Positions 6,186 through 55,415 of a stretch of 64,000 nt of DNA are shown piece after piece. This DNA comes from Paludibacteraceae bacterium (lineage in GTDB: Bacteria; Bacteroidota; Bacteroidia; Bacteroidales; Paludibacteraceae). The notes beneath the pieces were generated by a model. It saw only the letters and a list, made by a program, of their open reading frames with translations. It was not told the origin of the DNA and searched no databases. The DNA lies in NCBI GenBank assembly GCA_017630395.1, contig JAGBVI010000001.1:124001-188000 (forward strand). The letters run 5' to 3'. The position numbers and the translations under genes are program-made. Every line of letters starts with the position of its first letter. The first letter of the stretch is position 1.

Positions 6186-7043
6186 ATGTTTAAGTATAAA
6201 GTCACTGTAAAGAATGGTAAAGGTTCTCTTAATGAAAGTAAAACTGTTCTCGTAAAAAGCAAGAGACACCTTACAAGTGAGGAAGCATTTGATAAGGCTT
6301 CTGAGTATTATAAGAACAAGTATAATTTCATTGTGGAGAGTGCCGATGTAAGTTCTGATAGCACGATTAGTGTATATGTAGGAACTTGGGGTAAGTACAA
6401 TGATGGTTCACTTCACGGTGAGTGGATTGACTTGTCAAAATTTGATACTCCTGAAGATTTCAAAAATTATTGCCACAAGAAACTTCATGCTGATGAACCT
6501 GATGCAGAGTTGATGTTTCAAGATGTAGAGGGGCCTGCTTGGGTTCGTTCCGTAATCAGCGAGTATGGCATGAACTATGAAATGGTATGGGGTTGGTTAG
6601 GTCTTGACAAATGGGAGAAGCCAGTTGTTGATGGTTACATTGAACTTTACGGTATTGATGGATTCAGTGATTTTGATGAGTTGGCAAGTGCTGCTCAGGA
6701 TGCCTACATGGGCGGTGAAGGACAGGACTTTGACGATTGGGTTCAGGATTTCTTCTCAGAGACAATGGGTCACATGAAGGTGTCCGATTTCATTGACAAG
6801 CATTACAACTGGGTTGATTTTGACAATGCCAAGATGTACATGGATAATGATGGATATGGCTACAACGAAGAGGAAGACGATTACGAAGAGGTTGATGACG
6901 ATGCAGCAGAAGAGTGGGTTCGTATGGGATACAGCACTGTTCAAGACCTCATTGATAACAGCCTCATTGACTGGCCCTTTGTAGAGCGTGATTATAAGAT
7001 TGAACTCTCCGTTGCTTCTAATGGCTGCGTATATTATGGATAA
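6186..7043 (+). CDS. ardA: Tagged ArdA antirestriction protein (shared N-terminal module + ArdA)
   Basis: Residues 1-60 are the module shared by eight genes in this window (here MFKYKVTVKNGKGSLNES, then a helix and IVESADV). From about residue 64 the protein is ArdA-like: SVYVGTWGKYNDGSLHGEWI and ELMFQDVEGP are family hallmarks, followed by a very acidic C-terminal half with a run of Asp, Glu and Tyr. ArdA is a DNA-mimic dimer that blocks type I restriction-modification enzymes; usual length is about 165-180 aa, so 285 aa reflects the added module. L15-N-E17 matches the T4 prohead protease consensus (I/L-x-E), and IVE near residue 56 is a second possible site. I infer packaging into the head and injection, as for T4 IPI or P1 Dar proteins. 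A terminator follows at 7086. Confidence 0.85.
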   Translation: MFKYKVTVKNGKGSLNESKTVLVKSKRHLTSEEAFDKASEYYKNKYNFIVESADVSSDSTISVYVGTWGKYNDGSLHGEWIDLSKFDTPEDFKNYCHKKLHADEPDAELMFQDVEGPAWVRSVISEYGMNYEMVWGWLGLDKWEKPVVDGYIELYGIDGFSDFDELASAAQDAYMGGEGQDFDDWVQDFFSETMGHMKVSDFIDKHYNWVDFDNAKMYMDNDGYGYNEEEDDYEEVDDDAAEEWVRMGYSTVQDLIDNSLIDWPFVERDYKIELSVASNGCVYYG

Positions 7044-7085
7044 AAATGTATTGAGTTCTGAAAAAAGAACTGATGTATAATTATT

Positions 7086-7114
7086 GGAGGGGTTATAAAA
7101 CCCCTCCTTTTTGT
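7086..7114 (+). terminator. Rho-independent terminator
   Basis: The stem is GGAGGGG/CCCCTCC with an 8-base loop and a T run. It lies between the ArdA fusion and the next methyltransferase, which rules out an upstream start for the latter. Confidence 0.85.
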
Positions 7115-7120
7115 TTAGAC

Positions 7121-7924
7121 ATGAAATACGAATTTGAAAATTTTACATTATTCCAAGGCGATTCATCAGAAGTGTTGAAAACTTTTGATGACGAATCCAT
7201 TGACATGGTTATTACAAGTCCTCCTTATGACGATTTAAGAAATTATAATGGGTTTTCATTTGATTTTGAGACCATTGCAAGGGAATTGTATCGCGTTTTG
7301 AAGCAAGGCGGTGTAGTCGTTTGGGTAGTAAATGACGCAACTTATAAAGGAACAGAATCATGCACAAGTTTCAGACAGGCATTGTATTTCAGAGAATGTG
7401 GATTCAATCTCCATGATACGATGATTTGGATAAAGGATGGAGGTGGAGCGATTGGTAGCAATAAATGCTATACTCAGAATTTTGAATACATGTTTGTGTT
7501 TTCAAAGGGTTCTCCGAAATCCATTAATCTCATTTATGATAAACCTAATAAGACAGTTGCAAGAACTCACAAAAATACAGAAACTTGTAGAATGGGTAGA
7601 AGATTAAAAAATGGTGTTCATAAACAAGAGAAACGAACATTCAGAGAAATGTCAAAGAGAAATAACTGGTGGTATCTCGTTCCTCAGAAACAGGAGGGTT
7701 CATCGTGGCATCCAGCGGTTTTACAAAAACAAATTGCTGATGACCATATAAAAAGTTGGTCAAATGAAGGTGATGTGGTTTTAGACCCATTTATGGGAAG
7801 TGGAACTGTTGCAAGGTCTTGTGAAGAACTAGGTAGAAAGTGTATTGGAATTGAAATTTCAGAAGATTATTGTCAGAAAATGATTGAAAAATTTGGACTT
7901 GACAAAGTTGAAGAACTTGAATAA
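7121..7924 (+). CDS. DNA methyltransferase (SPPYDD type)
   Basis: A beta-arranged amino-methyltransferase of 267 aa. Catalytic SPPYDDL is near residue 33 and AdoMet-binding DPFMGSGTVA near residue 225, followed by KCIGIEISE. The middle holds NNWWYLVPQKQEGSSWHPA, a segment typical of phage N4/N6 methyltransferases. I start it at ATG 7121 because a longer frame beginning at 7073 would run through the terminator. It is followed by a short gap and the phosphatase gene. Target sequence unknown. Confidence 0.9.
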   Translation: MKYEFENFTLFQGDSSEVLKTFDDESIDMVITSPPYDDLRNYNGFSFDFETIARELYRVLKQGGVVVWVVNDATYKGTESCTSFRQALYFRECGFNLHDTMIWIKDGGGAIGSNKCYTQNFEYMFVFSKGSPKSINLIYDKPNKTVARTHKNTETCRMGRRLKNGVHKQEKRTFREMSKRNNWWYLVPQKQEGSSWHPAVLQKQIADDHIKSWSNEGDVVLDPFMGSGTVARSCEELGRKCIGIEISEDYCQKMIEKFGLDKVEELE

Positions 7925-7950
7925 AATAATCCAAGTAAAGGAGAAATAAA

Positions 7951-8763
7951 ATGGAATATAAATTAACTCACGAAATGTGTCTCTTGTGTGGTGATATTCA
8001 TGGTTGCCTTAGAGATGAAGAGGAGCACAAAGGATTTTTTGACAGTGTTGACAAGTGTGGTGGTTTTGAGAATACAGACATCATCATTCTTGGTGACATT
8101 GGTGTAGGCTTTTATCATTATGATTACATAAATGATGATTATAAGCCTTATGGTGATGTAAAGTGGTTAAAAGAATTGGATAAATGGGCAAAGGATAATA
8201 ACAATGATGTATGGGTATTCAGAGGTAATCACGATGACCCTTCCAAATACACGGAAGATAGTAAGTTATGGGATTGGTTAGATAATGTTCATTGTTTGAG
8301 AGATGGCGATACTGTTGTTAGTCATAATGGTAAGCGTTATCTCGTAATCCCTGGTTCTATCTCCATTGACAGAAGTGGCAGACATCGGGTTCTAGGCTTC
8401 ACCTATTGGGATGACGAATACATAAAGTATGACCTTTACGAACAGATGGAAGCACAGAACTTTGACGGTGTATTTGCCCATAGTGGGCCTACACCTCCTG
8501 AATGTATGAAGTCACACTTTGTAGAGAACTGGGCAATCCGTGAGAAAGAGGGTGACTTCTGGCAACCTAACAAGAAATTCCCAAAGGGGTTGAAAGAGAC
8601 TATTGAGGAAGAACGAGAGAACATTGATAAAATAATTACCAAGTTCAAGCCTAAGTATTGGTTCAATGGTCACTATCATGAGGATGCACACTTTGAGCGT
8701 AACGGTTGTGAAGTGTTTGCATTGAGTATTAGCAAATTCTTGGAGTTAGATAGATACGAATAA
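7951..8763 (+). CDS. Calcineurin-like metallophosphoesterase
   Basis: Hydrolyses phosphate esters with a di-metal centre. The metal ligands appear in order: GDIHG, GDIG, GNHD, FAHSGP and GHYHEDAH. The 270-aa length is normal. A good ribosome-binding site (AAAGGAGAAATAAA) precedes the ATG, and the TAA overlaps the next ATG (TAATG), coupling it to the EcoRI-like methyltransferase. Candidate substrates are nucleic acid ends, nucleotides or phosphoproteins; nothing in the sequence decides. Confidence 0.85.
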   Translation: MEYKLTHEMCLLCGDIHGCLRDEEEHKGFFDSVDKCGGFENTDIIILGDIGVGFYHYDYINDDYKPYGDVKWLKELDKWAKDNNNDVWVFRGNHDDPSKYTEDSKLWDWLDNVHCLRDGDTVVSHNGKRYLVIPGSISIDRSGRHRVLGFTYWDDEYIKYDLYEQMEAQNFDGVFAHSGPTPPECMKSHFVENWAIREKEGDFWQPNKKFPKGLKETIEEERENIDKIITKFKPKYWFNGHYHEDAHFERNGCEVFALSISKFLELDRYE

Positions 8764-9728
8764 TGGGAACTAGAAAAACATTAAATGATGCCAAAAGAAG
8801 AAAGGCAGATGAATTTTATACTTCGTATGAAGATATTGAAAAAGAAATGAAGTATTATACTCATTTTTTCAAGGATAAAACTGTATATTGTAACTGTGAC
8901 AATCACGAATCTAATTTCAGAAAATACTTCTTTGATAATTTTGATAAGTTAGGGTTGAAGCGTCTTATCTGTACTTCTTACCCTTATGGTACATTAGAGG
9001 ACATCAATAAAGATGAAATGCAACTAACTGTAATGAACGGTAATGGAGATTTCAGAAGTGAAGAATGTATTGAGTTTTTGAAGCAATGTGATATAGTTGT
9101 TACCAATCCTCCATTCTCTTTATTCAGACAACATTTGAAGTTGATTATGGAACATGGTAAGAAGTTCATTACTCTTGGAACGAATAAAGGAGTGGTGACA
9201 AAGGAAGTGTTTCCATATTTCAAGAGAAATGAGGTGAGACTTGGTGTTTCAATACATAGTGGCGACAGGGAGTTTAGAGTTCCTGATGATTATCCTTTAA
9301 GTGAAAAGGCAAGTAGAATAGATGAAAAAGGTGTAAAATACATCAGAGTTGATGGTGTAAGATGGTATACAAACTTTGATATCTCACAAGATAATAAAGG
9401 AATTGAACCTGTATGTCATTATAATGAAAAAGATTATCCTAAGTATGATAACTTGGACGCTATTCATGTGAAAAACAGTAAAGACATCCCTGTTGATTAT
9501 GATGGTCTAATGGGAGTTCCTGTCACTTACATTGATAGACAAAGAGAGGATTTGTTTGAAATTGTAGGAATTTTCAATAGGTTTTCTCAAAGTGATTATG
9601 TGAACGGATTTATCTGTGGTGAAAATGCAGAATACGAAGAAAAAAGTGGCAAAGTTTTGAGAACAAGAGGTCCTGTTCTTAATAGAAAAGCACTTTATAC
9701 AAGAATTCTAATAAAGAGAAAAGTATGA
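8763..9728 (+). CDS. Adenine-specific DNA methyltransferase, M.EcoRI-like
   Basis: The N-terminus (DEFYTSYEDIEKEM, HFFKDKTVYCNCDN) and catalytic NPPFSLF near residue 118 fit the EcoRI-type N6-adenine methyltransferase family. The next segment FITLGTNKGVV and the PDDYPL region are also family-like. Length 321 aa. It is translationally coupled to the phosphatase gene. No partner endonuclease is next to it. Its end (TGA at 9726) is followed by a 63-base gap before nrdG. Confidence 0.85.
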   Translation: MGTRKTLNDAKRRKADEFYTSYEDIEKEMKYYTHFFKDKTVYCNCDNHESNFRKYFFDNFDKLGLKRLICTSYPYGTLEDINKDEMQLTVMNGNGDFRSEECIEFLKQCDIVVTNPPFSLFRQHLKLIMEHGKKFITLGTNKGVVTKEVFPYFKRNEVRLGVSIHSGDREFRVPDDYPLSEKASRIDEKGVKYIRVDGVRWYTNFDISQDNKGIEPVCHYNEKDYPKYDNLDAIHVKNSKDIPVDYDGLMGVPVTYIDRQREDLFEIVGIFNRFSQSDYVNGFICGENAEYEEKSGKVLRTRGPVLNRKALYTRILIKRKV

Positions 9729-9791
9729 GTAATAGAAGAATAAGTTGTTCAAAGAAAATGGAATAAAATTACTAAATGTTTGTGACATAAG

Positions 9792-10553
9792 ATGGATAAA
9801 GAACGAAACGAGAGAGAAGGAACGAATAGTGCAGTTTTTAGCAAAGTAGCGGGAGTAGAAAAGATAAGCATGATTGACATGAGGGGTTATGTCAGTTGTG
9901 TATTATTCTCAAACAAGTGTTCTGGCTATGTTTGCCCATACTGCTACAATATTGATTTGTGGAAAGGGCAACTTCCTGAGTTAGACCCACAAGAGATAAA
10001 GGATTATCTTTTATCTCGTAAGAATCTCATTGATTATGTGGTATTCAGTGGTGGAGAATGCACACTTCATCGTGATTACTTAATTGACAGTGCGAAGTGG
10101 TGTAAGGAGCAAGGGTTCAAGGTCAAAGTAGATACTAATGGTTCTAATCCTAATCTCGTAATACAGATGATTGAGGATGGATTGATTAATTATGTAGCCT
10201 TGGATTACAAATACCCTGACCTTCCTAATGAATACTTGAAGTTCCACAGTAACAGTATGCTTAGATGGAACATGGAACAGTTACTTGAATATATGATTAG
10301 TAATAATGTTCCGTTTGAGACAAGAACTACAATACACCCTGAGATTACCGATGAGGAAAAGGCTAATAAAATTTTAAAAGAATTGGAGAAATGGGGTTAT
10401 AAGGGAACACATTATTTCCAGTTCTTCAACGAATGCCCTGAGACGTTAGGAAATGTAAATCAAAATCCTAGAAGATTTAGAACAGAGGATTTGATAGAAA
10501 CAACGTTTAAGGTAGAGTTTAGAAATCTGAAAGCGAATGAAAAACGAATGTAA
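9792..10553 (+). CDS. nrdG: Anaerobic ribonucleotide reductase activase (radical SAM)
   Basis: Generates the glycyl radical on NrdD using AdoMet and a 4Fe-4S cluster. The cluster motif is C-SGYV-C-PY-C (near residues 38-46), that is CX4CX2C, one residue longer than the standard CX3CX2C. Downstream features are normal for the family: VVFSGGECTLH (the GGE motif), KVDTNGSNP and YVALDYKYP. The 253-aa protein is longer than classic NrdG (about 155 aa) and resembles the longer activases. It overlaps the next methyltransferase gene. Here its client should be the separate glycyl-radical protein at 3720 or its complex with NrdD. Confidence 0.88.
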   Translation: MDKERNEREGTNSAVFSKVAGVEKISMIDMRGYVSCVLFSNKCSGYVCPYCYNIDLWKGQLPELDPQEIKDYLLSRKNLIDYVVFSGGECTLHRDYLIDSAKWCKEQGFKVKVDTNGSNPNLVIQMIEDGLINYVALDYKYPDLPNEYLKFHSNSMLRWNMEQLLEYMISNNVPFETRTTIHPEITDEEKANKILKELEKWGYKGTHYFQFFNECPETLGNVNQNPRRFRTEDLIETTFKVEFRNLKANEKRM

Positions 10554-11451
10554 AAACGTGTTATTGTTAGGAGATGCAACAGAACGAATGAAAAGTATAC
10601 CTGATAATTCCGTAGACTGTTGTATTACAGACCCACCGTACAATTACGAATTTATTGGTAAAAATTGGGATGAAAACGAAATTGAACGAAGATGTAAAAA
10701 GGTTGAAAATAGTTCAACCTTAGTAAAAAACATACCTTACGGAAGTGCATTGGCAGGAGGTAAGCGTGATGCTAAGTGGTACAAACGAAACGCTGATAAT
10801 ATTCTTGCATATAGAAATTGGATTCAAGAATGGGCAAAAGAACTATTTAGAATTCTAAAACCAGGCGCATATGTATTTGTATTTAACAGCAGTAGAACAA
10901 TTGCCCACGTACAAATTGCTCTGGAAAGCGTTGGTTTCTATGCCAGAGACATTATAGTATGGAGGAGGAATTCAGGCATTCCAAAGGGACTGAATATATC
11001 CAAGAAAATGGAGAAAATGGGAGATATGGATTTTGGATATTGGAAAGGGTGGCATAGTTGTTTGAGAAATGAATGGGAAGGTATATCTCTTGTTCAAAAA
11101 CCATTAGAAGACAATTACTTAACTACGCTTAAAAAATTTTCAGTAGGATTGCTTAATACTCGTATTAATTCAGAATCTTTTCAGTCAAATATAATAGAAA
11201 ACATTGGTAGAGATAAAATTGATGACTATAATTCTCACCCTACGGTGAAGCCTTTATCTTTGATTAGATGTTTGTTACGACTTGTAGTAGTTCGTGATAT
11301 CAATTTCACAGTAATTGACCCATTTATAGGAAGCGGAACAACTGCTATTGCCGCTTTGTGTGAGGGTGTGAATTTCATAGGGATTGATAAATCCGAAAAG
11401 TATCTAGGTATCGCATCGAGAAGAATTAACGAATATGAAAAACGAATGTGA
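10537..11451 (+). CDS. DNA methyltransferase (DPPYNYE type)
   Basis: A beta-class amino-methyltransferase of 304 aa. Catalytic DPPYNYEF is near residue 32 and AdoMet-binding DPFIGSGTTA near residue 267, followed by NFIGIDKSEKY. RILKPGAYVFVF is the conserved strand after motif IV. Its start MKNEC is repeated at the next methyltransferase start (11435), and both starts lie inside the 3' end of the preceding gene (ATGAAAAACGAATG), a sign of tandem duplication. Target unknown. Confidence 0.9.
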   Translation: MKNECKNVLLLGDATERMKSIPDNSVDCCITDPPYNYEFIGKNWDENEIERRCKKVENSSTLVKNIPYGSALAGGKRDAKWYKRNADNILAYRNWIQEWAKELFRILKPGAYVFVFNSSRTIAHVQIALESVGFYARDIIVWRRNSGIPKGLNISKKMEKMGDMDFGYWKGWHSCLRNEWEGISLVQKPLEDNYLTTLKKFSVGLLNTRINSESFQSNIIENIGRDKIDDYNSHPTVKPLSLIRCLLRLVVVRDINFTVIDPFIGSGTTAIAALCEGVNFIGIDKSEKYLGIASRRINEYEKRM

Positions 11452-12308
11452 TAAAGTAATTCAAGGGGATTGTATAGAGGTTATGCAATCCCTACCTACT
11501 GCTGATTTGATTATTTGTGACCCACCTTATTTCAAGGTTGTGGCAGAAAAGTGGGACTATCAATGGAGAACTGATGAAGATTATCTTGAATGGAGTAAGC
11601 AATACTTAACAGAGTGTTACAAAAAGTTACGAATAGGTGGCACAATGTATTTGTTTGGTTATTTCCGAATGTTAGGTAAGTTGTTGCCATTATTGGAAGA
11701 GATAGGGTTTTCATTGAGACAACAGATTATAATCAATAAAGGCAGTAGCAGGAAGAGCAACGAAGAATTATAAGATGTTTCCTAACTGTACTGAATCTGT
11801 TCTGATGCTCATAAAGGATAATACATTATTCTCAAAAAAGTTTCTCAAAGAAAGACAGAAAGAATTAGGACTTACTTCAAAGGAAATCAATGAAGCATTA
11901 GGAGTGAAAAGTAATGGTGGTGGAATGTGGAGTATCTATACAGGCAACAATGTATGTAAGCAATTCCCTACCAATGAATTATGGGATAAGTTACAGAAGG
12001 TATTGAAATTTGAACTACCTTATGAAAAGATTGCTCAAACTTATAATCCTATTATGGGACTTACAGATGTATGGGATGACATTGATTTTTATAAAGAGAA
12101 GCGTTATCATCCTACACAAAAGCCAAAAGAACTAATAAAGAGATTGGTTGAAGTTTCTAGCAACAAAGGTGATGTTGTAATTGACCCATTTGGAGGAAGT
12201 GGTAATACCGCATTGGTTTGTGAAGAACTTGAAAGAGATTATTATCTGATTGAACTTGAAAGAGATTATTATAAGAAAATAACAGAAAGAATTGAAAATG
12301 AGCGATAA
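11435..12308 (+). CDS. DNA methyltransferase in two frames (+1 shift near 11737, or split gene)
   Basis: The first frame (11435-11773) has the catalytic DPPYFKVV and ends at TAA after an unlikely tail (GSSRKSNEEL). The second frame (ATG 11775-12308) has HPTQKP and the AdoMet motif DPFGGSGNTA. Moving one base forward at AAATAAAGGC gives KAVAGRATKNYKMFPNCTES, which is typical methyltransferase text, so the parts belong together as about 290 aa. Explanations are a recent frameshift mutation, programmed +1 shifting, or assembly of two separately translated halves, which some methyltransferases tolerate. Residues after TSKEINEALGV resemble an insert common in phage relatives. Confidence 0.75.
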
Positions 12309-12966: not shown

Positions 12967-12977
12967 AATAATTTATA

Positions 12978-12985
12978 ATAAATAA
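12978..12985 (+). promoter_or_regulatory. T4-like late promoter box ATAAATAA
   Basis: The box ends 11 bases before the ATG at 12997. The following AAGAAACAGTT leader has no strong Shine-Dalgarno sequence. Confidence 0.6.
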
Positions 12986-12996
12986 AAGAAACAGTT

Positions 12997-13458
12997 ATGT
13001 ATAAGTATAAAGTTCAAGTAAAGAAAGTAAGTGGAAGACTCAATGAGAGTGTTCTCCCTAGTAAGAATTTGGTAGTAAAGTCTAAGACAAAGAAGTCTAA
13101 GAGTACCGTTTTAGCAGAGGCTTCTAAGTTCTTCAAGAAGAAGTATGGACTTGTAATTGAGAGTGCTGATGTTGATGTTGAGTCGTTTAATGAAATTATT
13201 GACATTTTTTCAGAACAGTATGAAAATTATTACTACATGGTTGATAAATCCGAAGTTGATGAAACTCTTTGGGCTGAATGTTGGGAAGAAGTAACTTCAA
13301 AGATTGTGGAATTCTTAGATGCTCATCCAAGCGTCATCAAGAAGATGGAAGGTATGGATGATTTTAAAAAGGGTGAGTATGCTGCCAACATTCTTAAAAA
13401 GACCAAACTTGGGGTAAGAATAGAAGAAATGGTTGAGACGTTAGAAAGATTCAGATAA
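12997..13458 (+). CDS. Tagged small acidic protein (shared N-terminal module, unknown cargo)
   Basis: Residues 1-60 are the shared module (MYKYKVQVKKVSGRLNES, then KSKTKKSKSTVLAEASKFF and GLVIESADV). The cargo, residues 61-153, is acidic and helical (EIIDIFSEQYENYYYMV, ETLWAECWEEV) and I do not recognise it. Its size and charge suit a DNA mimic or inhibitor, by analogy with the ArdA member. The gene with its late promoter and terminator is flanked by a 13-base direct repeat, as if inserted at the 3' end of the MT-A70 gene. Confidence 0.8.
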   Translation: MYKYKVQVKKVSGRLNESVLPSKNLVVKSKTKKSKSTVLAEASKFFKKKYGLVIESADVDVESFNEIIDIFSEQYENYYYMVDKSEVDETLWAECWEEVTSKIVEFLDAHPSVIKKMEGMDDFKKGEYAANILKKTKLGVRIEEMVETLERFR

Positions 13459-13468
13459 CTAATCAAAA

Positions 13469-17466: not shown

Positions 17467-17655
17467 ATGAAGAAGCTCACACAGAAAGAAGTTCGCAGTT
17501 GGTTGGTTTCACTTGCTCAGTCTCAGGGTTTTTACGGAAGACTGCTCCGTGATTTCAATAATACAGAGGCTTATGTTCGTAGGAACTTTATGAGTGCTCT
17601 ACATGAGAATAAAGTTAAGGACATGTTTGATTTTGTGATGTATATTGAGGGATAA
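17467..17655 (+). CDS. Hypothetical protein (62 aa)
   Basis: I do not recognise it. It is helical with mixed charge (MKKLTQKEVRSWLVSLAQSQ) and has no cysteine pair or membrane segment. A perfect sigma70-type promoter suggests early expression. Its last codons (GGATAA) run into the late box of the next gene. Confidence 0.65.
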   Translation: MKKLTQKEVRSWLVSLAQSQGFYGRLLRDFNNTEAYVRRNFMSALHENKVKDMFDFVMYIEG

Positions 17656-17659
17656 ATAA
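17652..17659 (+). promoter_or_regulatory. T4-like late promoter box ATAAATAA
   Basis: The box overlaps the stop codon of the 62-aa gene and ends 10 bases before the ATG at 17670. Confidence 0.55.
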
Positions 17660-17669
17660 TTGAAAGATT

Positions 17670-18185
17670 ATGTTTAAGTACAATGTTAAAATTTTGAAAG
17701 TTAGTGGGAGACTCAATGAGAGTGTTCTTCCTTCTAAGAATTTGGTAGTAAAGTCTAAGACTAAGAAGTCTAAGAGTGCTATTTTGACTGAGGCTTCCAA
17801 GTATTTCAAAAAGAAGTATGGTCTTGTTATTGAGAGTGCAGAGGTTCAGCCCCAAGACGAATATTTTTATTCCGAAGTAGGAGTGAGAGGTAAATGTTTC
17901 TATAAAGTCTTAAAGAAAACACCTGGAACAGTGACAGTTGTCCGTGTTAAAACTGAATCTGCATACGATGAAAATGGCAATATAATTGGCGTTCAACCTT
18001 CAACAGAAGTAGCAAAAGGTTCTACACCTGTGAGAAAAAAGGTACATAACTTAGACAAAAATAAAGACCCAAAGCACGATTACATTGAATTTAAGTTGTA
18101 TGGTAGAGCAGTTCGTTGGATGGGTGTTGATTATTATAAATCTGATTGGGAAGATTCATTCAAATACCCTCAAACGATTGACTAA
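17670..18185 (+). CDS. Tagged protein (shared N-terminal module, unknown cargo)
   Basis: Residues 1-60 are the shared module (MFKYNVKILKVSGRLNES ... GLVIESAEV). The cargo (residues 61-171) looks like a small beta-rich domain (GKCFYKVLKKTPGTVTVVRV, YIEFKLYGRAVRWMG) with a lysine-rich middle, unlike the acidic cargo of its paralogs. Function unknown. The gene is late-promoted and ends in the shared terminator at 18195. Confidence 0.8.
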   Translation: MFKYNVKILKVSGRLNESVLPSKNLVVKSKTKKSKSAILTEASKYFKKKYGLVIESAEVQPQDEYFYSEVGVRGKCFYKVLKKTPGTVTVVRVKTESAYDENGNIIGVQPSTEVAKGSTPVRKKVHNLDKNKDPKHDYIEFKLYGRAVRWMGVDYYKSDWEDSFKYPQTID

Positions 18186-20703: not shown

Positions 20704-20720
20704 TTATTTACCATAAATAA
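20704..20720. promoter_or_regulatory. Back-to-back late promoter boxes
   Basis: Minus-strand GTAAATAA (20704-20711) serves the endolysin and plus-strand ATAAATAA (20713-20720) serves the tagged gene at 20735, one base apart. Confidence 0.6.
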
Positions 20721-20734
20721 TAAAAGAAAAGATT

Positions 20735-21202
20735 ATGTTCAAGTATAAAGTTCAAATTCAAAAAGTAAGTGGAAGATTGAATGAGAGTGTTCTTCCTTCC
20801 AAGAGTTTGGTTGTAAAGTCCAAGACTAAGAAGTCTAAGAGTGCTATTTTATCGGAGGCTTCTAAGTTCTTCAAGAAGAAGTATGGTCTTGTAATTGAAA
20901 GTGCTGATGTTCAACAATTTGAAAGTCAAAGACTTTCTCCTGAACTCGTTCAGAAATGTAAGGAAATCTCTAATAAGTTCAAAAATAGACCTGACTATAA
21001 GGCACAATTGCGTAACGCTATTTCTATGGCAACAAGTTATGTAGAAACGATTGGTGAGTGGGCTGAGTATGCAGCGGCAGGAAAAGTGGAAAATGATAAA
21101 GTGAGAGTGTATCTTGGAGAAATGGTAGAAAATTCTATAATTTTAGAAGAGTTCGTAAATACGTTGAAAGAAGCAAGAGTTCTTCTCAAAGAATTCAGAT
21201 AA
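20735..21202 (+). CDS. Tagged small protein (shared N-terminal module, helical cargo)
   Basis: Residues 1-60 are the shared module (MFKYKVQIQKVSGRLNES ... GLVIESADV). The cargo (61-155) is predicted all-helical (SPELVQKCKEISNKFKNRP, VENSIILEEFVNTLKEARV) and unrecognised. Its last residues, KEFR, resemble the end of the 12997 protein (LERFR), so these two cargos may be distantly related. It lies as a plus-strand unit between two minus-strand genes, with its own late box and terminator, which fits an inserted cassette. Confidence 0.8.
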   Translation: MFKYKVQIQKVSGRLNESVLPSKSLVVKSKTKKSKSAILSEASKFFKKKYGLVIESADVQQFESQRLSPELVQKCKEISNKFKNRPDYKAQLRNAISMATSYVETIGEWAEYAAAGKVENDKVRVYLGEMVENSIILEEFVNTLKEARVLLKEFR

Positions 21203-21805: not shown

Positions 21806-21813
21806 ATAAATAA
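21806..21813 (+). promoter_or_regulatory. T4-like late promoter box ATAAATAA
   Basis: The box ends 7 bases before ATG 21821, which favours that ATG over the earlier in-frame ATG at 21725. Confidence 0.55.
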
Positions 21814-21820: not shown

Positions 21821-22975
21821 ATGTTTAGGTATAAAATATATATTAAAAAGGTAAATGGGAGATTAAATGAAAGTGTTCTACCTAAGAAAAATCTAATAAT
21901 AGAAAGTAAAATTAAAAGAACCAAAAGGGGACTTTTAAGGAATGCTGCAAAATATCTTCTTGAACAATATGGATTGGAACTTAAAGATGCTCGTATTGTT
22001 CTTGAAAATGCACCTAGAATTAATGGTAGAACAGATATGGAAAAACAAGCTGCTAATGCTGCACAGACTAATCACAGATTGACAAGACCCAACATCTCGT
22101 TAGTTAAAATTAGGGACGCAATTGCAAAGGTTTTGGCAGAAGAAGTTTACAGTAATTTCCGTCTTGGTAGAAGAGAACTTAGATACAGAGTTCCAGATGG
22201 AATTTGTATAACGATGGACGGAGATGTTCAAATTTATGGAAGTCACATCCACGGTGGATTTGGAACATCTTATAGTGACGCAGCGAACGCGACATGGAAA
22301 GACCAATCGTATGATGCCGATGAAAAAGCAGCGGACAATGTATTCAGCGTTCAGTTCGATGACGATGATTTTAATGGGTTAATCTGGTATACTGAAAACT
22401 TAGACAACGAAATCATTAACGATGTTGATGATGACGCAGAAGATTACGAAACTTCTTGGTTGTATGAGGATGAGATTGAAAACTTGGAGTCTAATTTAGA
22501 ATCTATTAATTCTTACAAAGACCTTACGGAAAGAATGAGATATTTGAACTATGATACTTCCAAGGGTTTGTTAGAAGAAATTAAGACATATGTTGACAAC
22601 ATAATGAAAGAATATGTTCAAATGAGTTCAAACTCCTCAAAGGTTAATTCAAAGTCAGGATTGAGAAAGATGGAAGAAGAGGAGAAGCCAGTTCGTAAAC
22701 AACGACTTCAAAAGGAAAAATTTACAACAGAAGAACTTTTGAGTTTGTGTAAAGAAAGAGGTCATGGAGATTTGGAATATAGTGGTTATAGAACTACTCC
22801 TGATGGTAGAAAATATGAACTTAAAGTTTCAAGTGTAGCAACAGGGGGTAGAAAAGTTTGGGTATGGACAGGTTCACCATCAGTAAAACTCAGTGCAAAG
22901 GCTGTTGCTTTATACGATGTCAAAACTAAGACTTGGCAAAAGAAGCGTAATAACTTCATTGAGATTGTTGACTAA
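21821..22975 (+). CDS. Tagged large protein (divergent shared module, 384 aa)
   Basis: The N-terminus is a diverged copy of the module (MFRYKIYIKKVNGRLNES, then NLIIESKIKRTKRGLLRNAAKYLLEQYGLEL); L-N-E-S is kept although much else has changed. The cargo is the longest of the family. It has a region with GVCITMDGD-like strands (DGICITMDGDVQIYGSHIHG), an acidic centre (DDDDF, DVDDDAEDYE) and a C-terminal domain (FTTEELLSLCKERGHGDLEY ... VWVWTGSP). I recognise no enzyme motif. Its acidity again suits a nucleic-acid mimic. A terminator follows, but not the shared cassette type. Confidence 0.8.
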   Translation: MFRYKIYIKKVNGRLNESVLPKKNLIIESKIKRTKRGLLRNAAKYLLEQYGLELKDARIVLENAPRINGRTDMEKQAANAAQTNHRLTRPNISLVKIRDAIAKVLAEEVYSNFRLGRRELRYRVPDGICITMDGDVQIYGSHIHGGFGTSYSDAANATWKDQSYDADEKAADNVFSVQFDDDDFNGLIWYTENLDNEIINDVDDDAEDYETSWLYEDEIENLESNLESINSYKDLTERMRYLNYDTSKGLLEEIKTYVDNIMKEYVQMSSNSSKVNSKSGLRKMEEEEKPVRKQRLQKEKFTTEELLSLCKERGHGDLEYSGYRTTPDGRKYELKVSSVATGGRKVWVWTGSPSVKLSAKAVALYDVKTKTWQKKRNNFIEIVD

Positions 22976-23030: not shown

Positions 23031-23038
23031 CTAAATAA
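23031..23038 (+). promoter_or_regulatory. T4-like late promoter box CTAAATAA
   Basis: The box ends 8 bases before the prohead protease ATG. Confidence 0.6.
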
Positions 23039-23046: not shown

Positions 23047-23718
23047 ATGTATACTAAAAGTTTGAAACTTATTGTTGAAGAACCAAAAGACAGACAGGAA
23101 TTCTCCTTTATTAAGGAATCTGTTGAGATGTCCGATGGTACAAAGGAAAAGCGTTATTACATTGAAGGCCCATTCACCGAGGCTAACAGTCGTAACCGTA
23201 ATAATCGTATCTATCCACTTGATGAGATGGTACAACAGATTAACGAGTTCAATGAAAAGTTTGTATTACAACACAGAGCAACAGGTGAATTGGAACATCC
23301 TGAGTATCCTAATCTCAATGCTGAAAAGGCATGTCACCTTATTACTTCATTGAAACAAGATGGTAATGTATTCTATGGTAAGTCCAAGATTCTTTCCACT
23401 CCAACAGGTAAGATTGTAGAAAGCCTTTTGAGAGATGGTGTGCAATTAGGTGTTTCCTCTCGTTCACTTGGATGCTTGGATGAGAGTACAGGTATTGTAA
23501 CAGATTTCCAACTTTGCACATTCGACATTGTACATGACCCTTCCTGCTAGAAAGCATTCGTAAATGGTATTCTTGAAAGTAAGGATTGGATTTGTAACTA
23601 CAATGAGAAGTTTGTTAAACAATATGAGAGTTTCGATAAGAAGTTGGCTAAACTTCCTAAGAAGGATGTAGAGAAGTATCTCTTAGGTGCTGTTATGGAT
23701 TTCATGAAGAAAATGTGA
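23047..23718 (+). CDS. Prohead maturation protease, T4 gp21-like, one TAG(Gln)
   Basis: With TAG at 23548-23550 as Gln the protein is 223 aa, close to T4 gp21 (212 aa). The Ser protease hallmarks are the histidine in TGELEHPEYP and the serine in QLGVSSRSLG; EGPFTEANSRNRNNRIYP is the conserved start of the domain. In T4 this enzyme cleaves head proteins after I/L-x-E. It is first in the head block, followed by the core protein, scaffold and capsid genes. Without TAG readthrough it would lose its last 56 residues. Confidence 0.92.
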
Positions 23719-23974: not shown

Positions 23975-25030
23975 ATGGATAATAACGACACATCTGTAAA
24001 TGTAAAGGACTTGCTTCCCAAGGAGTTACTTGAAGCAGTTAGTGAGAATGGACTCGCTACTCTTCAGGAAGCTTTTGATAAATTGGTAGAGAGCAAGGTA
24101 AGCTCGCAGATTGCTACCGCTGTTAAATCCGCTGAGGTATCATTGGATGCCGCTCTTACAGAGAGAATGCAGAAACTTGTTGCCAAGCTTGATGAGAATG
24201 CTAAAATCAATCTCGTTAAGGTTGTTAATAAGCTCAATGAAAATCATCAGGCAGAGATGGCTGATGTAAAGGCTAAGGCTGTAAAGCGTATCAATGAGAT
24301 GAGAGAGAATGCCAACAAGGCTATTGCTACAATCAAGGAAAACTACGAAACAAAAACTGCTAAGGAAGCAGAAATGTTCCGTGAGAGCATTACTAAACAA
24401 CTTGGTAAGTTCATCGTAGAGAATGTAGATAAGTGCATTCCTTATGAGCAGATTCAGTCTGCTGTAAAGAACACCAAGGCTATTGAACTCCTTGAATCAT
24501 TTAAGCAACTCCTTAACTTTGAGGAAGTTTACAACAGTGAAGCACTCAAGCGTCCTATTCTTGAAGCGTATTCACGAATTGAGAATGGTAAGAAAGAAAT
24601 CAGTTCTCTTAATGAGGAAAATGAGTCACTCAAAGCAGAACTTGCAGAAGCTAAGGCAGTTATCGCTGAGGCTGAACGTAAGGCATATCTTGCTAAGAGA
24701 TTGGCTGAGATTCCTTCAAAAGACCAGAGAATGTTTGTAGAGCGTGTACTTGAAAAGGCTTCCTTGCAGTTCATCAAGGAAAACTTTGAGTATACTGTAA
24801 AGCAATATCGCACAAACAGTCTCAAAGAGAATGCAATCATTGCTGAAAAAACTCGTGCTAATGCAAAGAGTCAGCAAATCGCTGCACATTCTCGTAAGGA
24901 ATTGAGCAGAATTATGACAGAGGGTAAAAAACCTGCTATTGAAAAATCTTCTAAGAAGCCTCTTAATGAATCCAAAAACAATTGGCTTAGTAAGCTTGTA
25001 AAGGATTGGAAAGACAATTATGAGGAATAA
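23975..25030 (+). CDS. Prohead scaffold protein, T4 gp22-like
   Basis: A 351-aa protein, strongly helical and charged with long coiled-coil stretches (about residues 50-150 and 200-250), placed directly before the capsid gene. The C-terminal tail contains PAIE and PLNES, both matching the I/L-x-E prohead protease consensus, as expected for a scaffold that is degraded during maturation. PLNES repeats the LNES of the tagged family. The homology is structural and positional rather than by a strong motif. Confidence 0.85.
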   Translation: MDNNDTSVNVKDLLPKELLEAVSENGLATLQEAFDKLVESKVSSQIATAVKSAEVSLDAALTERMQKLVAKLDENAKINLVKVVNKLNENHQAEMADVKAKAVKRINEMRENANKAIATIKENYETKTAKEAEMFRESITKQLGKFIVENVDKCIPYEQIQSAVKNTKAIELLESFKQLLNFEEVYNSEALKRPILEAYSRIENGKKEISSLNEENESLKAELAEAKAVIAEAERKAYLAKRLAEIPSKDQRMFVERVLEKASLQFIKENFEYTVKQYRTNSLKENAIIAEKTRANAKSQQIAAHSRKELSRIMTEGKKPAIEKSSKKPLNESKNNWLSKLVKDWKDNYEE

Positions 25031-25074: not shown

Positions 25075-26979
25075 ATGGCTATTATTACTAAAAGAAATCG
25101 TGCTGCACAGGCTGCTCCTAAGGCTCGCCTTACGCAGACACAGAAAAATGGTCAGCGTACCCGCAAGGCAGTAAAGAACTGGTCTGAACTCCTTGAGTGT
25201 ACTGCTGGTTTCGCTCCTATTCGTAACAAGAATGTTCGTAACAACACCGCTATGCTCCTTGAGAACCAGATGCGTTGGCTCAATGAGAACAGCCCTGCTA
25301 TGACCACTGCTATGTTTGGTCCTCAGAATGGTCTTCATGGTGGCGACCTTGGCAACAGCGACTTCTATGCTCCTGGTGATATGCGTAACCCAACAACTAT
25401 CCTTCCTATGGTTCGTCGTATCTATCCCGCTCTCATGAGCAATGAGACGGTTGGTGTACAGCCCATGCCTGGTCCCGTAGCTCTTGCTTTCGCTATCCGT
25501 TATCGATACCTCAAGGGTGCTAACGCTCTTGGTGACAGCTCCACCGAGCACGTTCACGATTCCGCTCAGGGTGCTCCTCGCGGTCAGCGTGGTATTGAGA
25601 CTAAGGCTATGGTTAGCGAGGTTAGTAGTGTTGCTATGCTCACAACAGTTGTAGGTCAAAACTTCCCAACCACAGTTCCTGCTGTGATTGAAGTTGGTAC
25701 TGCACTTGAAGTACATCCTCTCATTCAGCAAATTCTTGGTGCTCCTGCTACTGCCCCTACTGCCAAGACACTTGCAGCTCTTAAGACTGCTTATGGTAAC
25801 GATATCAAGGGTCTTGACACCACTGGCATCAAGATTGTTGGTGTAACAACTGAGTCTGAAATCAGCACTCCTACATTTGATGAAGCTACTGGTAAGTGGA
25901 AGATGGGTAACTCCGAAATGGGTTATCAGAGACTTGACACCCGCTTCACTGGTGCTCAGGATGCTCGTCTCCTTGACAAGACTCTTGCAGGTGGTCGTTG
26001 GCAGTTCCGTCTTGAAGATACTGGTATTGCTGCTAAGGTACATAGCTTTGAAGCTACTGGTGCTATCGCTCGTACCTCCTTCGGCTTCGAGAAGCAGGCT
26101 GTTGAAGCTGGTACTCGTAGACTTTCAACCTCTTGGACACTTGAAACTCAGGAAGACCTCAAGAACACCAACGGTATTGACATTGACACCGAAGCTACTC
26201 AGCAGATGAGCTATGAGCTTCAGGCTGAAATTGACCGTGAAATGACCGTCCGCATGCTTTACAGCGCACTTAAGAACGGTGAATGGTCCGTATGGTCTGG
26301 TCAGCTTGCCGATGCCCGCTGGATGGGTGAGCGTGCTCGTGCTTTCTATCAGTTCATCATCAAAATGGCTATGAGAATGCGTGTTCGCAACCATCGTGGT
26401 GCTGCTAACTTCATCGTATGTACTCCTGATGTTGCTGCTCTTCTCCAGATGCTTGAAGACTATATCCCAATGCAGGTAAACAACACCATCGAGCTCAACA
26501 ACATGCAGTCCGCTGCTGCTGGTACTCTTGGTGGCAACAAGTTCAATGTTTACATTGACGAACGCACTGCCGTTTACAGCACAGACGACTACGGTCTTGG
26601 CTACAATGACATGTTTGCTGAGAACACTGAGGTTTCCCTTCCTAACTACTGCATGCTTGGTTATAAGGGTGCTGAAACGTATGATGCAGGTATTATCTAC
26701 TGCCCATACATTCCTATCATGGTTCAGACTGCAACCGATACAAACTCCTTCGCTCCTCACGTTGGTCTTATGACTCGTTATGGTGTAATGGATAACATCT
26801 TCGGTTCTCACCTCTACTACCATGTAATCCTTATTGATGACTTCTCCAACCCTGGTGTTGCTAAGGACGACCAGTCCATGTATCCCAATGGTTATGTTGG
26901 TCAGAAGTATGACAAGGGCGAAGTTCCTTCCTACTCTTTCCCTGTAAGTAGCGTTCCTACTGAGGAAGCTGGTGAGTAA
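25075..26979 (+). CDS. Major capsid protein, T4 gp23-like
   Basis: A 634-aa HK97-fold capsid protein of the T4 type. The N-terminal 41 residues are basic and Ala/Gln-rich and end in SELLE followed by CTAGFAPI, a likely prohead protease site (L-L-E) releasing a propeptide as in T4 gp23. Conserved gp23-like text includes LENQMRWLNE, ILPMVRRIYPALMSNETVGVQ, TAIARTSFGFEKQAVEAGTR-like and the end region IYCPYIPIM and DNIFGSHLYY. It has no TAG and a clear codon bias toward CTT, GCT and GGT, as expected for the most abundant protein. A terminator follows. Confidence 0.95.
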   Translation: MAIITKRNRAAQAAPKARLTQTQKNGQRTRKAVKNWSELLECTAGFAPIRNKNVRNNTAMLLENQMRWLNENSPAMTTAMFGPQNGLHGGDLGNSDFYAPGDMRNPTTILPMVRRIYPALMSNETVGVQPMPGPVALAFAIRYRYLKGANALGDSSTEHVHDSAQGAPRGQRGIETKAMVSEVSSVAMLTTVVGQNFPTTVPAVIEVGTALEVHPLIQQILGAPATAPTAKTLAALKTAYGNDIKGLDTTGIKIVGVTTESEISTPTFDEATGKWKMGNSEMGYQRLDTRFTGAQDARLLDKTLAGGRWQFRLEDTGIAAKVHSFEATGAIARTSFGFEKQAVEAGTRRLSTSWTLETQEDLKNTNGIDIDTEATQQMSYELQAEIDREMTVRMLYSALKNGEWSVWSGQLADARWMGERARAFYQFIIKMAMRMRVRNHRGAANFIVCTPDVAALLQMLEDYIPMQVNNTIELNNMQSAAAGTLGGNKFNVYIDERTAVYSTDDYGLGYNDMFAENTEVSLPNYCMLGYKGAETYDAGIIYCPYIPIMVQTATDTNSFAPHVGLMTRYGVMDNIFGSHLYYHVILIDDFSNPGVAKDDQSMYPNGYVGQKYDKGEVPSYSFPVSSVPTEEAGE

Positions 26980-48661: not shown

Positions 48662-48669
48662 ACTTGTTT

Positions 48670-51679: not shown

Positions 51680-51725
51680 ACATGTATAATTATACAGGAG
51701 TTCTATTCAAAGGGAGGTTTTATTG

Positions 51726-51733
51726 ATAAATAA
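51726..51733 (+). promoter_or_regulatory. T4-like late promoter box ATAAATAA
   Basis: The box ends 10 bases before ATG 51744. Confidence 0.55.
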
Positions 51734-51743
51734 TACTTGTAAA

Positions 51744-52505: not shown

Positions 52506-52512
52506 TTGACTT

Positions 52513-53457: not shown

Positions 53458-53472
53458 TGCTATACTTCCCAT

Positions 53473-53480
53473 GTAAATAA
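53473..53480 (+). promoter_or_regulatory. T4-like late promoter box GTAAATAA
   Basis: The box ends 14 bases before ATG 53495. Confidence 0.5.
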
Positions 53481-53494
53481 ATTTAGCATATACT

Positions 53495-53806
53495 ATGGGC
53501 AAGACATGGAAGAAGCGTGACGGACATGGTAAGCATGTTGGTAATTGGCGTGGAAAAGGTGAAGAGTATGGTCACAATTGGCGACCTAATTCTTACAGAG
53601 GGGCTTACAGAGAGTTCTGTGAAACTGATAAAGATTATCCTAAAATGAGAAAAGGGGCAGTTCCCCCTGAGCCTTGGGATGACCAGCAAAGTGAGGGCAG
53701 AATTCGCCCTGATAGCTCAAGGTTCAATCACCGTTCAATGAAAAAGGCTAAGGATGCTCGCCGTGAGTTTGAAGATAACTTCCCTGACCTAAACATTGAA
53801 TTCTAA
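53495..53806 (+). CDS. Basic hypothetical protein (103 aa)
   Basis: A basic, Gly/Trp/Arg-rich protein (KTWKKRDGHGKHVGNWRGKG, NWRPNSYRGAYREF) that may bind nucleic acid. Its last 10 codons (NFPDLNIEF) are partly repeated as non-coding fragments before the tagged genes at 54288 and 54825, so it looks like the anchor gene of the tandem array. Confidence 0.7.
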   Translation: MGKTWKKRDGHGKHVGNWRGKGEEYGHNWRPNSYRGAYREFCETDKDYPKMRKGAVPPEPWDDQQSEGRIRPDSSRFNHRSMKKAKDARREFEDNFPDLNIEF

Positions 53807-53807
53807 A

Positions 53808-53815
53808 CTAAATAA
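53808..53815 (+). promoter_or_regulatory. T4-like late promoter box CTAAATAA
   Basis: Near-identical leaders precede 54288 (box 54272-54279) and 54825 (ATAAATAA at 54806-54813). Confidence 0.6.
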
Positions 53816-53823
53816 TAGAAATT

Positions 53824-54255
53824 ATGTACAAGTATAGAGTCCAAATTAAAGAAGTTAGTGGAAGATTGAATGAGAGTGTTCTTCCTTCTAAGAGTTTGGT
53901 AGTAAAGTCCAAAACGAAGAAGACCGATGAGCAGATTTTTGCTAAGGCTTCCAAGTATTACAAAGAGAAGTACGGACTTGTAATTGAAAGTGCTGATGTC
54001 GTTACTGATGAGTATGACATGATGCTTGTTGATTATGATTCTGTGTATAATGATGCTATTAGATTTGTAAAAAAGAATTCTAAAAAATTATCACGAATGT
54101 CAGAATTGAACGGTATTCAAATGATTTTTTCTGCCATCTGCGAGAAAAACGGAGTTAAATCTGATGAATTAGATGATGCTGCTTTTGAAACCATACGAGA
54201 TGCTGCCGCTGACGCTTGGGATACTATAAGGTCTGACACTTGGTATACTATATAA
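53824..54255 (+). CDS. Tagged protein, tandem copy 1 (143 aa)
   Basis: Residues 1-60 are the shared module (MYKYRVQIKEVSGRLNES ... KTDEQIFAKASKYYKEKYG, GLVIESADV). The cargo is small and acidic (VTDEYDMMLVDYDSVYNDAI ... DDAAFETIRDAAADAWDTIR), helical, and unrecognised. It has the KTDEQ/KTDKQ variant of the module shared with the next gene, showing these two are each other's closest relatives. Confidence 0.8.
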   Translation: MYKYRVQIKEVSGRLNESVLPSKSLVVKSKTKKTDEQIFAKASKYYKEKYGLVIESADVVTDEYDMMLVDYDSVYNDAIRFVKKNSKKLSRMSELNGIQMIFSAICEKNGVKSDELDDAAFETIRDAAADAWDTIRSDTWYTI

Positions 54256-54287
54256 ACATTGAATTCTAAAACTAAATAAAAGAAATT

Positions 54288-54770
54288 ATGTATAAGTATA
54301 ATGTAAAAATTCAAAAAGTAAGTGGTTCTCTCAATGAGAGTTCTATACCTACTAAAAATCTTGTAGTGAAGTCTAAGACAAAAAAGACTGATAAACAAGT
54401 ATTTGCAGAGGCTTCCAAGTATTACAAGGAAAAATACGGACTTGTAATTGAAAGTGCTGATGTAACGAAAAATAATTATAAAATGTTTGAAGTAGGAGAA
54501 ACTTATGATGGTCTTTTTCTTGACCATTGGGGTTATAGAAATACTAATAACCTCGTTTTTCAAGTAATTTCTCGCAATGAAGAATATGTTGTTTTGAAGG
54601 CAGTTGCAGGTGATTTTGAAAATTATAATTTCCCAAAACAGTCATTCAAACGAAAAATCAGAATAGACATGAGATACAAAAGTTTTGCCCAAGAATATGT
54701 TCAACTCCCAAAAGCATTTTGGGTAAACGGAGAACATGGTATCGTTGCTGTAAATAACGAAATGGTTTAA
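54288..54770 (+). CDS. Tagged protein, tandem copy 2 (160 aa)
   Basis: Residues 1-60 are the shared module (MYKYNVKIQKVSGSLNES ... GLVIESADV). The cargo is beta-rich (YKMFEVGETYDGLFLDHWGY, NEEYVVLKAVAGDFENYNF) with a FWVNGEHGIVAV end, quite different from copies 1 and 3. Function unknown. Confidence 0.8.
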   Translation: MYKYNVKIQKVSGSLNESSIPTKNLVVKSKTKKTDKQVFAEASKYYKEKYGLVIESADVTKNNYKMFEVGETYDGLFLDHWGYRNTNNLVFQVISRNEEYVVLKAVAGDFENYNFPKQSFKRKIRIDMRYKSFAQEYVQLPKAFWVNGEHGIVAVNNEMV

Positions 54771-54824
54771 TTTGTTTTCCCGACCTTAACATTGAAATCT
54801 AAAAAATAAATAAAAGAAACAATT

Positions 54825-55415
54825 ATGTATAAGTATAGAGTTCAAATTAAGAAAGTTAGTGGAAGATTGAATGAGAGTGTTCTTCCCTCTAAGAGTTTGA
54901 TAGTAAAGTCCAAGACTAAGAAGTCCAAGAGTGCTATTTTATCGGAGGCTTCCAAGTTCTTCAAGAAGAAGTATGGTCTTGTTATTGAGAGTGCTGATGT
55001 TCAATTTTCAGAAAAACAACCTACCGCGCCAATTAAGCCACAGCAGTTGATTAAAATGGGGATTTCACCTTATTATGCATCAGCAATTGCACAATACATG
55101 CGTCTTAATGATGTTCCTCTTGAAAATGCAAAGAGAGTTGAAGAAGAAACTTATTCCTATGATAACATTTGGGAGATGATTGAGGGAGAGGGTATCTTTG
55201 ACACGCTTAACGATTGGTATGATTGGTCAGATGATTATGGAATCTATGATGTTGAATCATTACGTAATGAGTGTATGTATGGAGAACTTGACGAAGATGA
55301 AGTTGAAGAAATCGCTCGTAATTATGTGAAAAATAATTCAGGTGACGAGGTGTATTTTGATGGTCAAATTACCATTTTCATCAGGACAGATGAATTACGT
55401 GATACTTGGGGCTAA
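54825..55415 (+). CDS. Tagged acidic protein, tandem copy 3 (196 aa)
   Basis: Residues 1-60 are the shared module (MYKYRVQIKKVSGRLNES ... GLVIESADV). The cargo begins with a Pro-rich linker (PTAPIKPQQL) and a helical part, then is very acidic (EEETYSYDNIWEMIEGEGIF, WYDWSDDYGIYDVESL, GELDEDEVEEIA). The charge pattern is like a DNA mimic, though not clearly ArdA. It ends with the shared terminator at 55449. Confidence 0.8.
   Translation: MYKYRVQIKKVSGRLNESVLPSKSLIVKSKTKKSKSAILSEASKFFKKKYGLVIESADVQFSEKQPTAPIKPQQLIKMGISPYYASAIAQYMRLNDVPLENAKRVEEETYSYDNIWEMIEGEGIFDTLNDWYDWSDDYGIYDVESLRNECMYGELDEDEVEEIARNYVKNNSGDEVYFDGQITIFIRTDELRDTWG

Follow-up and report, generated by a model that had tools for sequence, protein, structure and literature searches.

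The 64,000-base window considered here is the stretch from base 124,001 to base 188,000 of a contig of 375,692 bases (JAGBVI010000001.1, called C113 below) in an assembly, GCA_017630395.1, assigned to a Paludibacteraceae bacterium. C113 is apparently a complete giant phage genome binned with a bacterium, because its first 141 bases are repeated as its last 141, it carries 27 transfer RNA (tRNA) genes (in the parts scanned; one 4-kb piece lay outside the scan) and T4-homologous virion genes are present on it. Eight genes of the window begin with versions of one module of about 60 residues and continue in cargo parts that are mostly unrelated; near them lie a gp21-type prohead protease and a gp23-type major capsid protein. 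The module is probably a capsid-targeting tag. The features are listed in window coordinates, all on the plus strand; ‘box’ is a TAAATAA motif ahead of the start, ‘site’ the four codons around a predicted cut, and a slash marks a cut.

6172..7043 (+), tagged gene 1: box 6172-6178, module 6186-6350, site codons 15-18 at 6228-6239, cargo of the ArdA family by sequence (residues 63-227 of 285)
12979..13458 (+), tagged gene 2: box 12979-12985, module 12997-13173, acidic cargo of 93 residues (net charge -10)
17653..18185 (+), tagged gene 3: box 17653-17659, module 17670-17846, cargo of 111 residues that clusters with the cargo of the copy at C113:232486
20714..21202 (+), tagged gene 4: box 20714-20720, module 20735-20911, cargo of 95 residues
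21807..22975 (+), tagged gene 5: box 21807-21813, divergent module 21821-21997, two-part cargo of 325 residues
23047..23718 (+), gp21-type prohead protease: box 23032-23038, 223 residues with the in-frame TAG at 23548-23550 read as sense (167 residues otherwise)
23975..25030 (+), candidate gp22-like scaffold, between gp21 and gp23, with three LNE tripeptides (residues 87, 212 and 330)
25075..26979 (+), gp23-type major capsid protein: PF07068 at 2.8e-71, putative cut WLNE/N after residue 71, codons 69-72 at 25279-25290
53809..54255 (+), tagged gene 6: box 53809-53815, module 53824-54000, acidic cargo of 83 residues
54273..54770 (+), tagged gene 7: box 54273-54279, module 54288-54464, cargo of 100 residues
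54807..55415 (+), tagged gene 8: box 54807-54813, module 54825-55001, acidic cargo of 136 residues (net charge -20) with a predicted alpha/beta fold

All eight modules are where a preliminary description of the window had placed them, and they align over residues 1-59 or 1-60. Three further copies lie on C113 outside the window (C113:122708, 232486 and 276668), making eleven; the rest of the assembly gave no module match. The most divergent-looking copy, 6186, lacks four residues after the site, and the other copies are 32-55% identical to it over about 60 residues; the copy at 21821 uses an ATG within a longer, TTG-started open reading frame (ORF; 21725). Expectation values (E) of 2e-23 to 2e-34 for these copies are no independent proof, as the profile was built on the same copies. 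The motif LNES at residues 15-18, earlier called invariant, is identical in 8/8 copies of the window; over all eleven, L15, E17 and S18 are fixed and N16 is once replaced by K (LKES, at 232486), and farther afield the second position varies and two of 190 distinct modules have Q for E. The basic patch KSKTKK, described as common to the family, is absent from 6186, which has KSKRHL. K28, S29, K30 and Y50 are about as conserved as the site, and the module is strongly basic (isoelectric point, pI, about 10).

When 5.8 billion proteins were searched with the module profile, 245 matched at E<=0.01; a second search, which started from the 21821 copy, yielded 221 at E<=0.001; the relatives examined were the best 120 of the 245 and the best 120 of the 221. 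The pooled set holds 233 proteins, the eleven of C113 included, and 225 of them match the module profile, the other eight being fragments or cargo-only; merging identical modules leaves 191, of which 190 cover the site. The module is N-terminal in all 225 matched proteins, with an internal or second copy in none: it starts at residue 1 in 213, at residue 8-25 in six that have longer start calls, and is partial in six.

The cleavage rule of gp21 is L/I-X-E, with propeptides of 10-19 residues in T4 (PMC9026906, in the part drawn on here). The predicted propeptide of the module, 17 residues, falls inside that range. Across the 190 distinct modules, P3 is L in 178, I in 11 and F in one (L or I in 189/190); P2 is N in 161, K in 24, S in two, and I, T and D in one each; P1 is E in 188 and Q in two; and P1' is S in 188, G in one and N in one. 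E17 and S18 belong to the six positions of the module that vary least. To judge from these alignments, fixed P3, P1 and P1' with a freer P2 is the behaviour of a protease site, and equals the gp21 rule. LNES occurs 16 times in the ORFs of C113, as against 2.7 times in shuffles, and ten of the 16 are modules.

The enzyme and its likely major substrate are both at hand, as the preliminary description had said. The protease, 71 bp downstream of tagged gene 5, is a Peptidase_S77 (PF03420, 6.8e-25; phrog_207, 5e-58), and reading through its TAG raises the match from 81.0 to 88.1 bits (Pfam) and from 175 to 198 bits (phrog_207). The capsid protein was confirmed by its Gp23 match (2.8e-71); for the gp22-like substrate that had also been proposed, gene order speaks in favour, and the match is weak (phrog_237, E 0.0033). 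The N-arm of the capsid protein (MLLENQMRWLNENSPAM) carries a site of the same kind. Among the best 120 of 3265 close relatives it reads LNEN in 115, LTEN in three and LKEN in two. In more distant relatives (80 kept of 465 IMG/VR loci) a [LIF]-x-E follows shortly after AMLLENQ in 79/80, and the spacing is four residues in 61/64 distinct versions; in these 64, P2 is N 29, Q 12, E 10, R 8, K 2, S 2 and T 1, and P1' is A 46, S 14, G 2, N 1 and D 1. T4 gp23 itself reads FLTE/A, and T4 IPII and IPIII read FIAE/A.

TAG is a sense codon in this phage. ORFs that end in TAG stay open for at least 40 codons past the stop in 100 of 166 cases, against 14 of 123 for TGA and 43 of 295 for TAA; portal, sheath, terminase and protease are each joined into one gene in code-15 gene models; and a tRNA with anticodon CTA (labelled tRNA-Pyl by ARAGORN) lies on the minus strand at L011:7055-7130, which is C113:235055-235130. 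The breaks in the protease, portal and terminase genes are only apparent, and are explained by this recoding; an intron in gp21 was not supported (at gathering scores the window has 0 Rfam matches). Lists of ORFs made with the standard code shorten those genes of the window that contain TAG; among the eleven module genes only that at 276668 does.

Two AlphaFold models predict that the module is a small folded domain and not a bare peptide: strand beta1 (residues 2-12/13), a loop, strand beta2, a helix and strand beta3, with the site in the loop. By tens of residues, the predicted local distance difference test (pLDDT) of the module is 78-91 in one model and 66-86 in the other. The site stretch is the least confident part of the module (66) in the better model, which is not so in the other, and the stretch after the site is variable in length among relatives. 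A possible second cleavage site at E55 was rejected.

A TAAATAA box stands 14-23 bases upstream of each module start, in 11/11 cases as against 48/573 other ORFs (p 5e-12). TAAATAA is a positioned signal: it occurs 67 times in the 120 bases preceding non-module genes, and 54 of these lie 10-19 bases ahead of the start, while its reverse complement has no such peak (1/28). With TAG read as sense, five of eight T4-homologous virion and packaging genes carry the box (gp4, gp15, gp18, gp20 and gp21; not gp13, gp17 and gp23), the assignments of gp13 (8.5e-6) and gp15 (1.5e-4) being weak matches; one apparent gp53 match, to a transposase-like ORF, was discarded as spurious. The T4 late promoter is TATAAATA, its first T is poorly conserved in relatives, and Aeh1 has CTAAATA (PMC1524935, as far as drawn on here). 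The box resembles that promoter, and the module genes are predicted to be of late type.

Comparison of the DNA around the copies suggests what has been duplicated. Mean pairwise identity among the eleven stays at the background level of 0.26-0.28 over positions -120 to -20 and climbs to 0.51 in -20..0; in codons 40-59 of the eight closest copies it reaches 0.85, and directly after it is 0.32. The homology runs from the box through codon 59, and so what spreads is, as far as these alignments tell, a promoter-plus-tag cassette.

Module genes and the gp23 gene are found on the same contigs, at times within 5-13 kb, because exact contig sizes coincide far above the background of shifted sizes: 14/45 and 13/51 contig sizes of at least 5 kb (two module lists) share their exact base counts with contigs of the capsid protein (best 120 of 3265), and shifted sizes give a mean of 0.14-0.15 coincidences. 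The shared contigs include ones of 5,207, 5,809, 8,039, 9,408 and 12,970 bases. The matching left out most contigs below 2 kb, rows of the second search already in the first, and the entry of P0004/P0040 at 488,370 bases, P0040 being given with no source and sharing 100% identity with a protein of the window. The preliminary description had proposed a profile search of phage genomes for co-occurrence with gp21-like proteases; what stands, from a comparison that covered gp23 only, is the sharing of contigs with the gp23-type capsid gene.

Record collections gave no matches: none to the module in 50,697 phage records (two queries from C113, and also P0018), none in collections of viral contigs or genome contigs, and none in 357 other genomes of the family, 392 of the order and 394 of the phylum (samples partly overlapping), apart from one 33-residue match with two stops (E 6.5e-4) in those genome sets, judged to be chance. 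The capsid protein likewise gave 0 matches in the viral contigs and its alignment 0 in the genome contigs; such collections may omit the records closest to the window, and negatives there are not evidence of rarity. No description of this module was found in the portions of the literature searched.

The cargos had been described as unrelated. That holds for their sequences: the eleven of C113 fall into ten clusters (those at C113:141670 and 232420 in one). The difference in fold that had also been claimed was viewed in two predicted models only, one of them poor in the cargo part. Single-linkage BLAST of the pooled set sorts 223 cargos of at least 30 residues into 28 clusters, up to 92 members in size; the first set taken by itself, with its 120 relatives plus the eleven, forms 30 clusters, and fusions to ArdA account for 21 of its proteins. 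Listed examples among relatives of the 21821 type carry module plus first part (284-297 residues), module plus last part (155-162 residues) or both (384-397 residues), a pattern that suggests domains being shuffled while the front stays constant. The 54825 cargo has a confident predicted model, yet no confident relative.

One cargo is recognizable. The cargo of 6186 is, by its sequence matches, of the ArdA family: it matches PF07275 at E 4.6e-12 and 47.2 bits (gathering cut-off 27) over profile positions 1-139 of 155, and with its tag removed it finds matches in 4904 of 72,556 plasmid records, of which 4076 are predicted to be conjugative; ArdA is annotated in ten of the 12 plasmid matches listed. 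The best plasmid hit is 38.8% identical over cargo residues 1-151 of 223 (E 5e-13). The free ArdA gene of that hit begins nine codons ahead of the match; therefore the tag fronts nearly the whole of an ArdA, and the cargo extends about 70 residues past the matched part. ArdA delivered with the DNA would block type I restriction ahead of any phage gene expression, a role comparable to that of T4 IPI and the P1 Dar proteins, which counter restriction for their phages. C113 also carries a striking number of genes (at least 11) of one DNA-methyltransferase family (window parts 2842-12308 and 57813-62737), with the late box before none (0/11); this set, together with ArdA, suggests heavy restriction pressure.

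Other head cargos may be present without the module. Three proteins start MKYKIKFVNE/S (C113:252947-253906), MTYNVKFIKE/S (361962-362309) and MKHFNIRFINE/E, that is MKHFNIRFINEE (246622-247707, minus strand); the T4 IPIII start is MKTYQEFIAE/A. The TAAATAA box precedes 3/3 of their genes, as against 80/768 candidate starts, and shuffles yield such T4-like starts of 10-11 residues 0.38 times on average (maximum 3). No Pfam or PHROGs match was found for the three at E 0.01; they are candidates for further head cargos on the strength of start and box. More generally, [LIVF]-x-E-[ASNG] within residues 5-24 occurs in 12/48 box genes and 40/525 others (p 5e-4, with no correction for how many patterns were tried), and control patterns with D, K or Q are not enriched. 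Also with a late box is an acidic protein of 142 residues (C113:120263-120691, start MFKCFKFIDDMMKQLNEAD), a gp67/gp68-like candidate by its weak match to phrog_9013 (head scaffolding, E 0.0067).

The surroundings offer some further observations. A transposase-like ORF (by eye) lies just before the window at C113:121521-122612, minus strand, about 100 bases ahead of the module copy at 122708. The copies at 122708 and 276668 have GDVDMYDDY in common across the module end, a possible trace of recent recombination. On both sides the 276668 copy is flanked by repetitive ORFs (C113:276000-278575) with phrases such as FYGCTYLSSF, which by eye resemble repeats of leucine-rich type. An NrdD-like anaerobic ribonucleotide reductase (phrog_487) and a radical-SAM gene, at 1031-2842 and 9792-10553, would fit an anaerobic host. 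Membership of the Jug phages was rejected: in the part of their description used here those average 27 and 30% guanine plus cytosine (GC) and use no alternative code (PMC12363816), against 35.3% GC and a recoded TAG on C113. In the main text of that paper ‘ArdA’, ‘injected’ and ‘paralog’ have 0 occurrences each.

The reading that best fits these observations is that the module is a capsid-targeting tag, cut after Glu17 by the phage's own gp21-type protease, and that mostly unrelated cargos are packed in the head and likely injected with the DNA; we put it at about 70%. This is in the main what the preliminary description had proposed, and it draws on the gp21-type site, the same kind of site in the capsid protein, the late-type box shared with virion genes, the N-terminal position in 225 proteins and the contigs shared with gp23. 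Some details are refined: the tag is predicted to be a small folded domain, the cut would take only 17 residues, and the conserved basic stretch that begins at Ser18 would be left on the cargo. The steps can be imagined as follows. Tagged proteins would be made late, together with the head proteins; the folded tag would dock into the scaffold core; gp21 would cut the loop between beta1 and beta2, removing strand beta1 and undoing the latch that holds the protein to the core; the cargo would keep at its front a basic stretch of about 42 residues, beginning at Ser18; and the freed cargo would stay with the DNA and exit via the tail. It is from all this that we infer an injection system. Duplication of the cassette onto new reading frames would make new proteins into cargo.

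Several points weigh against this reading. The support comes from sequence and predicted structure. Residues 18-59 are conserved too, beyond the needs of a plain T4-type tag; Q stands at P1 in 2/190 distinct modules. The module copies arose by duplication, and the 11/11 boxes are not independent; permuted heptamers also peak at 10-19 nucleotides, though less (AAATAAT 34, ATAATAA 23, AATAAAT 20 and TAATAAA 10, against 54), and overlap the same AT-rich stretch. The test on box genes is weakened by its extra-spacer control, [LIF]..E in residues 5-40, which is likewise enriched (11/48 against 36/525, p 8e-4). The pattern used for the capsid sites itself required a hydrophobic residue and E; moreover, we infer the capsid site from relatives because the T4 cut FLTE/A aligns seven residues beyond WLNE/N, at AMTT/A. 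A look through 18 records from farther relatives that share this type of capsid protein, several of them fragments, turned up no module, an empty answer that alone shows nothing. Among the cargos of C113 no function was assigned other than ArdA. Nor is acidity general: 14 of 30 cluster representatives have a pI below 5, against 32% of 418 ORFs.

In a second perspective nothing is cut. The module would then serve virion proteins as a docking or DNA-binding domain, with a basic beta-beta-alpha-beta fold that keeps the cargos on the packaged DNA or the inner shell, and L-x-E-S would be kept for folding. The compact predicted fold, the strong basicity and the conservation of K28, S29, K30 and Y50, comparable to that of the site, would all suit such a domain. 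We nevertheless judge it unlikely: the constraint at residues 15-18 has the pattern of a protease site and falls in a predicted loop beside a stretch of variable length, and the same class of motif recurs at the N-arm of the capsid protein.

Less probable again is that the tag directs late proteins elsewhere (to the tail or baseplate, the host ribosome or polymerase, or the replication compartment), making of them late host-takeover proteins that are not packaged. An antirestriction cargo made late would presumably be of little use unless carried to the next host; and a module gene adjoins the protease gene, small contigs are shared with the capsid gene, and the site is of protease type. That the tagged proteins are mere core filler, loaded and cut during head assembly and then lost or degraded before infection with nothing injected, is very improbable, as the cargos are conserved, nearly whole ArdA homologues among them, and one has a confident predicted fold.

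The reading as a capsid-targeting tag can be carried further, with odds that fall somewhat short of even. The TAG-recoded giant phage and its relatives may possess a general, evolvable delivery system: a duplicating promoter-plus-tag cassette of about 200 bases that captures reading frames and turns each into head cargo, a cleavable latch (strand beta1 behind an L/I-x-E/S loop) that docks, is cut by gp21 and lets go, a ready-made ArdA as the one load recognized so far, and a basic remainder on every cargo that would serve as a common handle for DNA association or for ejection. With a tag that can be recognized in sequence and that here marks a whole repertoire, one could draw up, without any culture, a list of the proteins that giant phages probably inject. 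The capsid-targeting reading predicts a first-minute counter-defence (ArdA) and a set of early effectors without known function; the tag would be a candidate for loading chosen proteins into large T4-like heads; and a folded, self-releasing tag, in place of the short T4 peptide, becomes a testable idea.

Tags of this sort in T4 are known for a handful of proteins. Against that standard the module would be a variant of the T4-type capsid targeting sequence (CTS) that exceeds it in size, in predicted fold, in the conservation of its remainder and in the number of its cargos. A search with whole T4 ipI, ipII and ipIII proteins against the ORFs of C113 (phmmer) gave no hit at E 0.01, the tags being too short to exclude kinship. 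The likenesses to the CTS of IPI, IPII, IPIII and Alt, which gp21 cuts, are these: the N-terminal position; 17 residues up to an L/I-x-E (10-19 in T4); a gp21-family protease and a gp23-type shell in the same phage; a tag on several dissimilar proteins; one cargo of antirestriction kind; and Tyr at position 4, as in T4 IPIII (MKTYQEFIAE). The module differs from the CTS, so far as the part of the account drawn on here describes it, in adding about 42 conserved basic residues and a predicted fold, and in counting eleven members within a single phage and cargos of about 28 clusters (PMC9026906).

Other phages offer partial parallels, here taken from parts of the accounts cited. SPN3US and phiKZ are giant phages with long propeptides; gp53 and gp54 are identical in their first 15 residues and have the cleavage motif within (PMC5694885), and head proteins with a common start that holds a protease motif are what is seen here. 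As paralogues, however, gp53 and gp54 are 34% identical to each other, and they have long propeptides and A/S-x-E sites, whereas the cargos of C113 are mostly unrelated and the motif is L/I-x-E (PMC5694885). In the Dar system of P1 (DarA, DarB, Hdf and others), antirestriction proteins are packaged in the head, as is predicted here, and DarA loses an N-terminal part to the prohead protease (PMC12810830); in the portion of that account drawn on, no tag is common to the Dar cargos, unlike here, and ArdA has 0 occurrences in its main text. The polyvalent proteins (PMC5512222) are likewise predicted to be injected effectors and count ArdA among their domains; they carry many domains per chain, whereas here there is mostly one cargo per chain, behind one tag.

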